Position numbers and translations under genes: made by a program
Shown: positions 1 through 5,505 of the stretch, piece by piece
Numbering within the stretch: position 1 is the stretch's first letter
Layout of the letters: every line of letters begins with the position of its first letter
Assembly (NCBI GenBank): GCA_029881495.1
Contig: JAOUMJ010000012.1
Span: 1-36,903 of the forward strand
Direction of reading: 5' to 3'
Source: Nitrospinota bacterium
GTDB lineage: Bacteria > Nitrospinota_A > UBA7883 > JACRGQ01
DNA: 36,903 nt
Notes under the pieces: generated by a model
What the model was told of the DNA's origin: nothing
The model's database searches: none
Seen by the model: only the letters and a program-made list of their open reading frames with translations

Positions 1-3000
1 CACCTTTGCCGTTAGCGAGCATCAGCGCGAGGAGATACTGCGCGCGGGGATAACCCTTCTCCGCCGCCATTTGGAAATATTTCGCCGCTTCCCTGCTGTC
101 TTTCTTCTTCAGCCCTCTACCGGTCAGATAGATGTGGCCGAGCCGGAACATCGCCTTTGAATGATCCTGCGCCGCCGCCATCGTATACCACGGCACCGCC
201 TTGCCGAACTCCCTCATCGGGTCTCGCCCCATGAAATATATCTCGCCAAGCTCATAGGCGGCGGCCCTGTGCCCTTTCTCCGCAGCCATTTTGTAATATT
301 TTATCGCCTGCTCGTATCCGCCGTCGGGAACCTCCGGCACGTTTGCGTATATTCCGGCAAGACGGTACTGCGCCTCCACCACTCCGCTCTCGGCGACAGG
401 GAGAAAATACTTTGCCGCCCTGGTGTAACTCCTCTTCACCCCTCTGCCGTCAAAATACATCCCGGCTATCTTGTACGAAGCCACGATATCGCCAAGAATG
501 GCGGCCCTCTCGTACCAGAACGCCGCCTTCGCGTCGTCCGGCTCTATCAGTTTTCCATCTTCAAATATCTCGCCGAGTCTTCGTGAGGCGGCGGAGACAT
601 TCTCAAGCGCGACAACTTCGTACCACTTGATCGCTTCAATGATGTTCCTGTCGACACCGTTTCCGGTTTCGTAGAGAGCTGCCATTTTCATCTGCGCGTC
701 GAGATTCTTCTGCTTCGCCGCCATGAAATACCATTTCGCCGCCTCTTTCATATCCCTCTTTCTTATTTCACCCTTTTCGTACATCAAGGCAACCCACATC
801 TGCGCGCCCAGATCACCCGCGCCAGCCGCCATCTCGTACCACTTCGCCGAAAGCGAAAGATCAGGTGAAACGCCGATACCTTCTTCGAATATTTTGGCAA
901 GCCTCAGCTGTGCGTCTATGTTCCCCTGCTCACCGACCTTTGTGTACCACTTGATCGCCATCTCCATCTCCGGCTTTTTTGTACCTTCGCCAAGCTCGTA
1001 CATCCTTGCGAGGAGATAAGCTCCGTCGAGGTTCCCCTGGTCGGAAGCGCGCTGATACCACTTTATGGCGCTCGTGTAATCACGATTGACCCCTTTACCC
1101 GTGTAATAGATGTCGCCTAGTTTTACCTGCGCGGCGGGGTCGCCCATCAGTGCGGCCTGCCTGTACCACCAGGAAGATCTCGTAAGGTTTTTGGGGATCG
1201 ACCCGCGATCCTCCGCCCAGAACTCCGCAAGGCTGTGCTCTATCTTGAAATACCTCGAACCGTTCACCGTATCGGTTTTCTTCTTTAAATCCTTGTCGGC
1301 CCTCAGCTCTTTTTCCGCATCCTTGTCCCCGGGATACGAAGGGGCATCCTTGTAACCGCTCAATGCCGTCTGATACCACTTCAAGGCGTTCTCGTAGCTT
1401 AAGGGTACTCCGTCTCCGGTCTCGAACAGCTTTCCTATCTCATACGCGCCACCCATCTCACCGCCGTCCGCCGCGGACTTGAAATAAATGTAGGCTGTCT
1501 TTGGATCCCTTGCCACCCCTTTGCCCGTCATATATATTCTTCCAGCGTTGAGGAGAGCCATGTTGTGCCCCTTCTCCCCCGCCTTCTCATACCATGAAAC
1601 CGCTTCAAAAATATCCTTGTTCACACCGCTACCTGTTTCAAGCATCAATCCAAGCGTGAACTGCGCTTCGGTATGACCCTTTACGGCCGCTTTCCTTATA
1701 AGGACGGCGGCGGCTCTTTCGTCTACCGCTATTCCGTCCCCTTCGCGCATCTTCCTGCCGAGCATGTATTCCGCTTCTACATAGCCGTGCGCCACCGATT
1801 TCTTATACCAGCCGATGGCGCTCTCCCCTTTTTCCGCTTTTGTGCGCCCCAGATCGATAAACTTCGCCAGTCGATACTCCGCTTCGGGATCCCCCTGCGC
1901 GGCGGCCTTCCGATACCAGCTTGCGGCCCTCAGGTAATCCCTGTATATCTTTACTTTTTTTTCTTTCCCTCTTTTATCTTCATCATCAAGGTCTGCCTCT
2001 TCCGGTATCGCCTCGCCGCTGTCCATGACCATCTTTACGAATTCGTCGCCGACCTCGTAACCCATTTCATATACGGCACCGAGCGTACGCTGTGCTTCTA
2101 CATGATTCTGCAGTCCCGCCTTCTCAAGCCACCCTATCGCCGCGACCGGATCCCTGTCGACATCGTCGCCATCCATGTATTTCATCCCGAGCCTGAACTG
2201 CGCCTCGGCATGCCCCAGCTCGGCGGCCTTTTGGTACCAGAAGATGTTCTCCAGCGGATCGCGTTTTGTCCCTTCCCCCTTGTCGAGAAGATCTGCGAGA
2301 GCGAACTGTGCGTCAGCGTTTTCATGTTCCGCCGCTTTTCTGAACAAATCGACCGCGTGGAAAGTAGCGCCATCCTCCAAACTGAGTTTCCCCAGGTAAT
2401 ACTCCGCGTCGCCCGAACCCTGCTCTGCCGCTTTTTCAAGCCAGAGCTTTGCTTCTACTCTGTCATTCTTTCCGCCTCGGCTGTAATACGCCTTTCCTAG
2501 GTTATACTGCGCGTCCATCAGGCCGGCCTTTGCCGATTCGAGATAAAGCGCTATAACCTTGTCGTAATTCTTTTCGCCCCCTTCGCTACTCTCCATTATC
2601 TTGGCAAGCCTGTTCTTCGCCCCGGCATGTCCCAAGTCGGACGCATGCCGGTACCATGTAACGGCGTTAGAATCATCCCGCGGTTCCAGCAATCCGAGGT
2701 CGTACAGCATCGCCAAACGGAAAGCGGACTCGGCATTGCCGGCGAGAGCCGCACTTTTGTACCACTCTTCCGCCTTGCCGAAATCCCTTATAACGCCTAT
2801 CCCTTTTTCATATGCCCTGCCTGTTTCCATCTGTGCTTCGATATGTCCCTGCGTGGCGGCTTTTTCATACCAGCTAGAGGCGGAAACCGGATCCTTGTCT
2901 AGACCTAGCCCCTCCGTAAAAATAGTGCCAAGCCTGAACTGCGATTCGACGTGTCCCTTGTCGCCCGCCTTCATATACCAGTACGCGGCGTTCAGAGAGT

Positions 3001-3949
3001 CCTGCGCTCCACCCTCACCCCTTGCAAGCATGTCGGCAATGAGGAACTGGGATTCCATATGCCCCTGCATGGCGGCCTTTTCATACCAGCTTCGGGCCGC
3101 CGGTTGGTTTCCGTCGCCGTAGTAAATCTGGGCCAATCGATATTGAGCTTCCGGGTGACCGCTTTCTGCCGCCTTGCCAAGCCAAAGCTTAGCCTCTTGC
3201 GCGTTGTCATCACCCAGCCTGTTGAAGTAAATGAAACCGAGCCTGTATTGTGCTTCCACCACACCCTGCTCCGCGGCCTTGCGGTACCACTCTTCAGCGC
3301 CCACGGAGTCGGGTCTCACACCGTCGCCGCTATCCAGCATTAACGCGAGCCTTGCTTGCGCGTCTGCAATTCCCTTTTCCGACGATTTGCGATACCACTT
3401 AACAGCCTCTTCATGGTTCGTGGCTGTCCCTGTCCCCTTGTCATACATGACCGCGACTTTATACTCGGCATCGGTAATGCCATGCTTTGCCGCCTTGAGA
3501 AGCCACTTGAAAGCTTGAACGTCGTTCTTTTCTACCCCCTGTCCCTTTTCATAGAAAATCCCGACACGGTATTGAGCCTCCGGCTTCCCCCAATCGGCCG
3601 ATCTCTTGAACCATTGAAAGGCCTCAACATGATCCTGGGGAACCCCTCTCCCCTGCTCATATATTTCACCCAGTGTATACTGTGCGAGGATATGACCGGA
3701 TATGCCGGCTTTTTTGTACCATTCGATCGCAGTTTGCATATCCATTTCCGGGTTTTTATCGCTACTGTAGAAATTCCCCATCAGGTACCGGGCCTCGGAA
3801 TCTCCGGCATTTGCCGATCTCTCCAGAAGAGCCAGCTCGCGGGGATCGGAAGGGATCGGCACGGAAATCTTCCCATAGCCGTTGGCATATGCGTGTTCGA
3901 CAGGCAAAAAACACGCTAATAGAGCAATTATCAATAGCCTGGACATCAT
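1..3949 (-). CDS. Giant secreted SEL1-repeat protein, C-terminus beyond the window
   Basis: The frame stays open for 1,316 codons from the start to the left window edge, so the C-terminus is missing. The N-terminus is a hydrophobic stretch ending in AYA before NGYGK, which reads as a Sec signal peptide; an internal LLAC makes a lipoprotein signal a weaker alternative. From about residue 40 onward I count roughly 33 SEL1/TPR-like repeats of about 36 residues. Typical features are AEQG at the helix start, EAQYRLG in helix A, a G-G turn and WY-KA in helix B. Two places break the period: a charged insert near residues 633-665 and an insert near residues 863-917. SEL1 solenoids are protein-protein interaction scaffolds; the partner is not visible here. 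Two in-frame ATGs lie at 3949 and 3946 behind GGAAGAGG; the second has the better spacing. The gene is divergent from gspL and has its own sigma28-like promoter. Confidence 0.93.
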   Translation of the reverse strand, partial: MMSRLLIIALLACFLPVEHAYANGYGKISVPIPSDPRELALLERSANAGDSEARYLMGNFYSSDKNPEMDMQTAIEWYKKAGISGHILAQYTLGEIYEQGRGVPQDHVEAFQWFKRSADWGKPEAQYRVGIFYEKGQGVEKNDVQAFKWLLKAAKHGITDAEYKVAVMYDKGTGTATNHEEAVKWYRKSSEKGIADAQARLALMLDSGDGVRPDSVGAEEWYRKAAEQGVVEAQYRLGFIYFNRLGDDNAQEAKLWLGKAAESGHPEAQYRLAQIYYGDGNQPAARSWYEKAAMQGHMESQFLIADMLARGEGGAQDSLNAAYWYMKAGDKGHVESQFRLGTIFTEGLGLDKDPVSASSWYEKAATQGHIEAQMETGRAYEKGIGVIRDFGKAEEWYKSAALAGNAESAFRLAMLYDLGLLEPRDDSNAVTWYRHASDLGHAGAKNRLAKIMESSEGGEKNYDKVIALYLESAKAGLMDAQYNLGKAYYSRGGKNDRVEAKLWLEKAAEQGSGDAEYYLGKLSLEDGATFHAVDLFRKAAEHENADAQFALADLLDKGEGTKRDPLENIFWYQKAAELGHAEAQFRLGMKYMDGDDVDRDPVAAIGWLEKAGLQNHVEAQRTLGAVYEMGYEVGDEFVKMVMDSGEAIPEEADLDDEDKRGKEKKVKIYRDYLRAASWYRKAAAQGDPEAEYRLAKFIDLGRTKAEKGESAIGWYKKSVAHGYVEAEYMLGRKMREGDGIAVDERAAAVLIRKAAVKGHTEAQFTLGLMLETGSGVNKDIFEAVSWYEKAGEKGHNMALLNAGRIYMTGKGVARDPKTAYIYFKSAADGGEMGGAYEIGKLFETGDGVPLSYENALKWYQTALSGYKDAPSYPGDKDAEKELRADKDLKKKTDTVNGSRYFKIEHSLAEFWAEDRGSIPKNLTRSSWWYRQAALMGDPAAQVKLGDIYYTGKGVNRDYTSAIKWYQRASDQGNLDGAYLLARMYELGEGTKKPEMEMAIKWYTKVGEQGNIDAQLRLAKIFEEGIGVSPDLSLSAKWYEMAAGAGDLGAQMWVALMYEKGEIRKRDMKEAAKWYFMAAKQKNLDAQMKMAALYETGNGVDRNIIEAIKWYEVVALENVSAASRRLGEIFEDGKLIEPDDAKAAFWYERAAILGDIVASYKIAGMYFDGRGVKRSYTRAAKYFLPVAESGVVEAQYRLAGIYANVPEVPDGGYEQAIKYYKMAAEKGHRAAAYELGEIYFMGRDPMREFGKAVPWYTMAAAQDHSKAMFRLGHIYLTGRGLKKKDSREAAKYFQMAAEKGYPRAQYLLALMLANGKG

Positions 3950-3987
3950 CCCTCTTCCGTTAAATGTAAGCAAACCCGTTATTCTGC

Positions 3988-4014
3988 TTATCGGCAAAAA
4001 GCATCAAATCCTGA
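3988..4014 (-). promoter_or_regulatory. Sigma28 (FliA)-type promoter for the SEL1-repeat gene
   Basis: Read on the minus strand, TCAGGATT is followed by an 11-nt spacer and GCCGATAA. The flagellar sigma28 consensus is TAAAGTTT-N11-GCCGATAA: the -10 element matches 8 of 8 and the -35 element 5 of 8, with the canonical spacer. The -10 box ends 38 nt before the first ATG of the SEL1 gene, a normal leader length. The match was made by eye, and the function is inferred. Confidence 0.6.
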
Positions 4015-4077
4015 GCAGATTATTATTTTCCCGATAAATTCATTTTGCACCAGCGGCGTGATAGAATCACTAGCGTT

Positions 4078-5505
4078 ATGCATAAAATCGCGGTTGTGGA
4101 TCCTAATGAGAAGTTCTCTTCATTCGCCGTTTTTTCCGAAAGTTTCCAAGGGGTTGCCCTTGAGAACACTGGACAGGTGAACGGCAATTTTCTGGATAAA
4201 GGTGAGACCGCGGCCAAACTGAAGGGGGAGCTTGAACGCCTCTGCCCTGAAGGATTCTCCCTCATCCTCCTCATTCCCCGGCATCTCGGGCTGGTGACTT
4301 CTGTCGCGATCCCGGCAAAATCTCCGGATATCATCGGGAAAATGATGGAATTTGAATTTCCCAGACATTTCCCCCTGAAAAAGGAGGAGTTGATCGCGGA
4401 TTATTACATCGCATCCCGAAATGAGGATAGCTTCGAAATAAACCTTGCGGGGATGAAACGGGAAGATTTCGAAAAATGGATGACTCTATCGAATGACGCG
4501 GGACTATACCCCGATGGAGTTTCGCTTTCATCCGCCGCATCCCTACCTGTGCCAACCGGCTACGCAAACGGCATCCCGGGAGGGGCGGAAATGCCATCCA
4601 AAAGAGTTTTTATCTCCATATCCGCTGAAGGGTTTGAGTTAAGCTTGGTGAAAAAAGAACGGATAATGTATTCCAGGTTCACCCGTTTCAAACCGCCGAT
4701 AGACGAAAAATACTTTTTTTCCGAAGAGCCGTGGGATGACTCAAGCGCAACCTCCGCCGCAAAACAGGTACAGGAAGAGTTTCAGCGCGTTCGCCTTGTA
4801 TCGGGAATAGAGGGGATAGATGATTATCTCCAAAGAATTTTCATCTCTGGCGGCGGGATGCTAAGGGGGAAGATCGCCTACAAGCTGGGGGGTATCCCTG
4901 AATTCACGAAATCCGACATTACAAAACTGCCGGGCAACGACAGCAAAAGCGGTTTCGACTATACGGCAGTCGCTCAGGGGATGCTGGGGATAGACGAGGG
5001 GGTAAGGTTCAACCTTATTCCGAAAAAACAGCGCAGATCGATGTTCGATCGTCTAAGAAAAAGGCTTCTCCTCACCGGCGGAGTTTTGGGAACTGCTCTA
5101 TTGATCTGGATTTCCACCGCCTGGGGGATCCAGTACTATCGGATAACAACTCTTGAGACGGAGCTTGCAAGATTAAGATCAGAGGCAACCAAATCAGAAA
5201 AAATGCTGTTGAAGGTTGACGAAATAGTCACATACCTTGGGAGCTTCATCAACTTTGCCAAGAGCCCCGCATTGACCATTGGGGTTTTTGACGCGATAAA
5301 TTCCGCGCTCCCAATGAACACTCACCTGACGGATATCGACCTTCGACGCGGAAAACTTACCATCGCGGGATTATCGGGCGATTCCTCCTCCCTTATCAAG
5401 ATGCTGGAAAACTCGGCGGCCTTTAAAAATGTACGGATGGTCGGTGCGGTAAATACCGCTATCGGCGGCGTGGAAAAATTCAAGATTGCGATGGAGCTTG
5501 AATGA
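4078..5505 (+). CDS. gspL: Type II secretion system inner-membrane protein GspL
   Basis: This 475-residue protein is built as an actin-like (PilM-type) cytoplasmic domain of about 320 residues, one membrane helix at about 330-353 and a periplasmic PilN-like domain. A predicted coiled coil (TLETELARLRSEATK) follows the helix. That fused PilM+PilN layout is diagnostic of GspL, which links the GspE ATPase to the periplasmic part of the secretion machine. FISGGGML near residue 261 resembles the conserved phosphate-binding turn of this fold. The ATG at 4078 is preferred to an in-frame TTG at 4045. Neither start has a clear Shine-Dalgarno sequence. The stop overlaps the gspM start by ATGA. No other gsp gene lies upstream: the neighbour is the divergent SEL1 gene. 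A type IV pilus-like role is possible, but pilM and pilN are normally separate genes. Confidence 0.82.
   Translation: MHKIAVVDPNEKFSSFAVFSESFQGVALENTGQVNGNFLDKGETAAKLKGELERLCPEGFSLILLIPRHLGLVTSVAIPAKSPDIIGKMMEFEFPRHFPLKKEELIADYYIASRNEDSFEINLAGMKREDFEKWMTLSNDAGLYPDGVSLSSAASLPVPTGYANGIPGGAEMPSKRVFISISAEGFELSLVKKERIMYSRFTRFKPPIDEKYFFSEEPWDDSSATSAAKQVQEEFQRVRLVSGIEGIDDYLQRIFISGGGMLRGKIAYKLGGIPEFTKSDITKLPGNDSKSGFDYTAVAQGMLGIDEGVRFNLIPKKQRRSMFDRLRKRLLLTGGVLGTALLIWISTAWGIQYYRITTLETELARLRSEATKSEKMLLKVDEIVTYLGSFINFAKSPALTIGVFDAINSALPMNTHLTDIDLRRGKLTIAGLSGDSSSLIKMLENSAAFKNVRMVGAVNTAIGGVEKFKIAMELE

Follow-up and report, generated by a model that had tools for sequence, protein, structure and literature searches.

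A giant SEL1-repeat gene behind a likely sigma28 promoter in a Nitrospinota bacterium

At the edge of the window, the 36,903-nucleotide stretch of Nitrospinota DNA analysed here, a giant SEL1-repeat gene lies downstream of a promoter-like site that is likely a real sigma28 promoter. The explanation we favor as a whole, with moderate confidence, is that this gene encodes a Sec-exported periplasmic scaffold controlled by sigma28 and co-expressed with the late flagellar genes. The analysis supplies the sequence elements themselves, an encoded FliA, a promoter distance kept in an orthologue, a signal peptide, the repeats and an accessory distribution; FliA dependence, a periplasmic location and a scaffold role are what we infer. 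An initial annotation had read the site as placing under sigma28 a scaffold unlike any described flagellar component. Its promoter reading is supported by the orthologue box, the encoded FliA and other good sigma28 promoters, but neither the claim of unprecedented status nor a role as a flagellar component is supported.

The SEL1 gene and its product

The frame of the SEL1 gene (Table 1) is still open at window base 1, the end of contig C12, and its 3' end is cut off, so the full protein has at least 1316 aa and at least 35 repeats; compared with the orthologue described below, at least about 100 residues are missing at the contig end. Three lines of evidence agree that tandem SEL1 repeats are present: a Pfam Sel1 match (PF08238) with an E-value of 5.5e-204; a profile made from the protein's own repeats, which detects 35 of them (34 at i-E < 0.01), in line with the at least 33 counted initially; and an AlphaFold model of residues 1-800, computed with no alignment, that consists of paired helices all along (pLDDT 80.8, pTM 0.53) and whose closest matches by fold are SEL1 proteins. 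Solenoids of this family serve as scaffolds that bind proteins.

By eye, and as the initial annotation had it, the N-terminus reads as a cleavable Sec signal peptide, with a positive n-region, a hydrophobic core and an AYA cleavage motif; the orthologue's N-terminus reads the same way (MFFKALATLFLSFCLLPHLSYA, cleaved before G). A lipobox-like LLAC lies inside the signal peptide (window 3911-3922), and the orthologue has LSFC instead. Because LLAC is not shared, we consider a lipoprotein the less likely form.

Table 1. Coordinates of the SEL1 gene, its upstream elements and other features of the window
Feature	Position	Strand	Basis or remark
SEL1-repeat protein, giant, predicted exported, 1316 aa in the window	2..3949	-	Open reading frame and Pfam Sel1
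Predicted Sec signal peptide, MMSRLLIIALLACFLPVEHAYA, cleaved before N	3884..3949	-	Read by eye
Likely ribosome-binding site, purine run GGAAGAGGG	3950..3958	-	Directly before ATG 3949
-10 element GCCGATAA	3988..3995	-	8/8 match to the sigma28 consensus; ends 38 nt upstream of ATG
-35 element TCAGGATT	4007..4014	-	5/8 to consensus; 11-nt spacer to -10
Divergent neighbour, GspL/PilM-N-like gene with PilN domain	4078..5505	+	Pfam PilN, 4.4e-9
Sigma28-type promoter of the window MCP gene, TCAACTTT-N11-ACCGATAA	8043..8069	+	Trusted matrix site; leave-one-out 20.6 bits

The upstream site and the sigma28 promoters of the lineage

The box reported initially, TCAGGATT-N11-GCCGATAA on the minus strand at 4014-3988, is confirmed in its -10, spacer, -35 and distance to the start codon. 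Is such a site more than a chance match? Against the E. coli FliA-type consensus, TAAAGTTT-N11-GCCGATAA, it carries three mismatches, and the whole genome holds 67 sites with up to three mismatches versus 64 for the backwards pattern. Enrichment is confined to sites with at most two (14 versus 3), the class with exactly three giving 53 versus 61. Among well-placed intergenic sites with up to three mismatches the count is 17 versus 9 for the backwards control, so that about half are expected by chance. We therefore rejected consensus counting as proof: since the whole excess lies at one or two mismatches and the SEL1 site has three, the consensus alone leaves its reality about evenly balanced. 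The octamer GCCGATAA occurs 297 times in the genome versus 140 for its backwards reading, and by itself is thus weak evidence here.

The lineage's own promoters offer a sharper yardstick. FliA is encoded in the genome (C9:48688-49362; 270 bits versus a cut-off of 190), and the strong sigma28 sites of this lineage, TAAAGTTT or TCAACTTT followed by N11 and (T/A/G)CCGATAA, precede fliD, a FapA-motA-motB operon, flagellin, chemoreceptors, a rod-like protein and a FlgM-like protein, the last assigned by resemblance only, with no match in Pfam. We built a matrix on 12 trusted flagellar and chemotaxis promoters, leaving the SEL1 site out. The trusted sites score 16.5-26.0 bits in leave-one-out tests; the SEL1 site, with a -35 that matches TAAAGTTT at five of eight positions, scores 15.2 bits, below all 12 and far above background. 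Under a first-order Markov null for intergenic DNA, the chance of reaching 15.2 bits is P = 0.0007 per 100 nt upstream, or about two chance sites among an estimated 2,700 genes. Outside the training set seven sites reach this score, versus two in the control, and one of the seven lies before a FlaG gene that had no part in building the matrix. The TCA that opens the SEL1 -35 recurs at the promoters of the motAB operon and of the MCP gene in the window. The latter promoter, 28 nt upstream of the chemoreceptor frame (8098), is stronger than the SEL1 site. Before the orthologue is counted, these results make the SEL1 promoter fairly probable.

A long colinear match was found in only one of the 59 other genomes searched, G001, which belongs to the same family and another genus. 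This orthologue (G001:C11:34500-37850) is complete, with 1116 aa, 28 repeats and 43% identity, and the divergent GspL/PilN-like neighbour is common to both genomes. In G001 the SEL1 gene stands alone between one divergent and one convergent gene and therefore requires its own promoter. The initial annotation had looked to orthologues for conservation of the box, and in the one found it is conserved at a matched distance: TAATGAAT-N11-GCCGATTA lies 40 nt before the likely CTG start, versus 38 nt here, and the upstream DNA has otherwise diverged. That start was picked for its good ribosome-binding site (AGGAG, 7 nt upstream); a TTG 4 nt past the box was rejected for want of a suitably spaced ribosome-binding site. 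At this distance, the chance that a 21-nt window holds a score of at least 9.0 bits is 0.0034 by the Markov model and about 0.017 by the raw intergenic rate, a rate inflated by the very sites for which the loci were chosen. Conservation in the orthologue thus raises the SEL1 site to a likely promoter.

The competing explanation is that the box is a chance match, the SEL1 gene being read by another sigma factor or from a promoter that the consensus does not recognise, and the GCCGAT resemblance in G001 being a coincidence or an unrelated regulatory element. The unenriched three-mismatch class, the poor -35 and the roughly 50% background among well-placed sites at this stringency all fit it, but a lineage-matrix score near those of real promoters does not, nor does the retention of box, spacer and distance in G001 (P about 0.003-0.02), and the stretch between the SEL1 gene and its divergent neighbour holds no sigma70-type site. 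Overall, we judge a chance match unlikely. As a promoter for that neighbour, the plus-strand CCCGATAA near 4030 was rejected, with only 4.7 bits and a spacer of 10.

How active might a sigma28 promoter of this kind be? Compared with E. coli FliA promoters, the SEL1 site has an identical -10 octamer and spacer, whereas its -35 matches at only five of eight positions; the trusted sites of its own lineage have better -35 elements. FliA ChIP-seq peaks in E. coli include GCCGATAA sites with weak -35 elements, such as those of ves (AACGTAAA) and fliAYZ (TGCAGAAA), and only 14 of 52 FliA-bound sites showed significant expression changes (PMC4183435). At aer in E. coli, where the -10 of the sigma28 promoter is weaker, a single change in the -35 is enough to abolish activity (PMC2859248). 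In light of these data, the SEL1 site is plausible as a promoter that could be weak or dependent on an activator.

Other sigma28-type sites deserve mention. Upstream of fliD, one site points toward fliD and two strong minus-strand sites point away (L080:3269-3515, that is, G000:C11:57268-57514, and L204:1392-1634, that is, G001:C39:20115-20357). The outward sites lie 114 nt apart in this genome and 107 nt in G001, lead into no clear reading frame, and are candidates for sigma28-dependent small RNAs conserved in both. Well-placed sites of 16.6-21.0 bits also precede genes that lack an evident flagellar function, among them one for an HxlR-type regulator (L087, G000:C7:4777; L088, G000:C5:55081; L091, G000:C42:9615; L141, G000:C9:26929), and these genes are possible extra members of the sigma28 regulon.

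Distribution and described relatives

Among the ten FliA-bearing genomes of the family, two have the SEL1 gene and eight do not. In the phylum sample, FliA over the cut-off and flagellin occur together in 18 of 23 genomes, and the SEL1 gene in two. A core flagellar component would be expected in every flagellated member of the lineage; with only two of these 18 genomes carrying it, the gene is accessory, and any role as a flagellar component would thus be an accessory one at most. Six family genomes (G003, G004, G005, G008, G009 and G010) have the neighbour gene with no SEL1 gene beside it, and in three more (G002, G007 and G006, the last lacking FliA) neither gene was matched. Scans of broader genomes and viral contigs returned only unrelated large SEL1 proteins, from Gilliamella and others, or none. 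Nor do SEL1 genes as a class go with sigma28: when 49 SEL1 reading frames, taken from relatives and from other bacteria, were scored with the matrix, the values were weak (10.5 bits at best, 213 nt from the start), and the G001 orthologue is the one among them with this spacing. Large SEL1 proteins without sigma28-type boxes are widespread, in Gilliamella, Oxalobacter and Clostridia among others (stretches L014-L041 and L145-L175).

The initial annotation also held that no described flagellar component resembles this protein, which is too strong in view of two Vibrio precedents. MotX is an exported SEL1-repeat protein of the T-ring in the sigma28-dependent class IV (PMC9093738, PMC6504787), and SflA acts on flagellation through a periplasmic SEL1-like domain (PMC7226244). 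The protein described here resembles MotX of the sodium-driven polar flagellum in its SEL1 repeats and, as predicted, in its export, its periplasmic location and its place in a sigma28-dependent class; MotX, however, is a protein of about 210 aa that acts together with MotY, whereas this protein has at least 1316 aa and is accessory in its lineage. With SflA of Vibrio alginolyticus, which has an exported periplasmic domain of TPR/SEL1-like type (PMC7226244), it would share such a domain, but the transmembrane segment and cytoplasmic DnaJ domain of SflA were not found in it.

Could the protein be a functional counterpart of MotX, or of the disk proteins of epsilonproteobacteria, docking at a periplasmic part of the motor and holding stators or a ring? 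MotX itself being a sigma28-class periplasmic SEL1 protein (PMC9093738, PMC6504787) lends the idea some appeal, and solved MotX chains in the PDB are matched at an E-value of about 1e-7. That match, however, spans only about three repeats (104 residues), and generic SEL1 proteins match far better, the best at 8e-72. In place of a short SEL1 protein with close MotX homology we thus find one of at least 1316 aa with a weak MotX match, far below those to generic SEL1 proteins, and for that reason we do not class it as MotX. MotY_N was found in none of 23 genomes, the control genomes also giving no match; the lack of the SEL1 gene from most FliA-bearing family genomes is a further objection. A counterpart of MotX or of the disk proteins is, in our judgement, distinctly unlikely.

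The solved SEL1 proteins (6ok3, c5321/4bwr, LceB, LpnE and HcpC) share the repeat family and fold, and several have a signal peptide, but they have far fewer repeats than the protein here. To our knowledge, none of them has a link to sigma28. A different possibility is that the protein is exposed on the surface or secreted, serving adhesion or cell interaction, and is made during motility without contributing to the motor. Secreted SEL1 proteins (E. coli c5321/4bwr, LceB and LpnE) are indeed among the nearest solved relatives by sequence or fold, and a patchy distribution together with a shift in repeat number (28 versus at least 35) would suit a fast-evolving outer protein. Likeness among SEL1 proteins, however, tells little of location, and no outer-membrane export signal or anchor was seen in the protein; we regard a surface or secreted role as conceivable though rather doubtful.

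A proposed sigma28-controlled envelope scaffold

On the explanation that we prefer, a Sec-exported periplasmic scaffold under sigma28 control, the SEL1 gene would form a single-gene transcription unit read from the FliA promoter at 4014-3988. Once the hook-basal body is completed and FlgM has left the cell, FliA-RNA polymerase would be set free and would transcribe the SEL1 gene along with the flagellin, motAB, fliD and chemoreceptor genes. The product, exported through Sec, would be a very long SEL1 solenoid, helical throughout, acting as a scaffold or adaptor between proteins in the periplasm, so that an optional envelope scaffold would be produced in motile cells only. Its candidate partners include the motor, the pole and a secretion or pilus platform; nothing in our analysis connects the protein itself to the motor. 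More speculatively, a lineage-specific SEL1 solenoid in the late flagellar regulon might build a periplasmic structure unlike the described flagellar accessories, for instance a disk at the motor or a tether linking the flagellar pole to another envelope machine, an idea that we consider improbable.

The significance of the finding is limited by the MotX precedent and by the rarity of the gene within its own family. Extra periplasmic scaffolds, often on the flagellar motors of uncultured lineages, have come to light through imaging and not through sequence; a conserved sigma28 promoter before a predicted exported scaffold would provide one candidate flagged by sequence alone.
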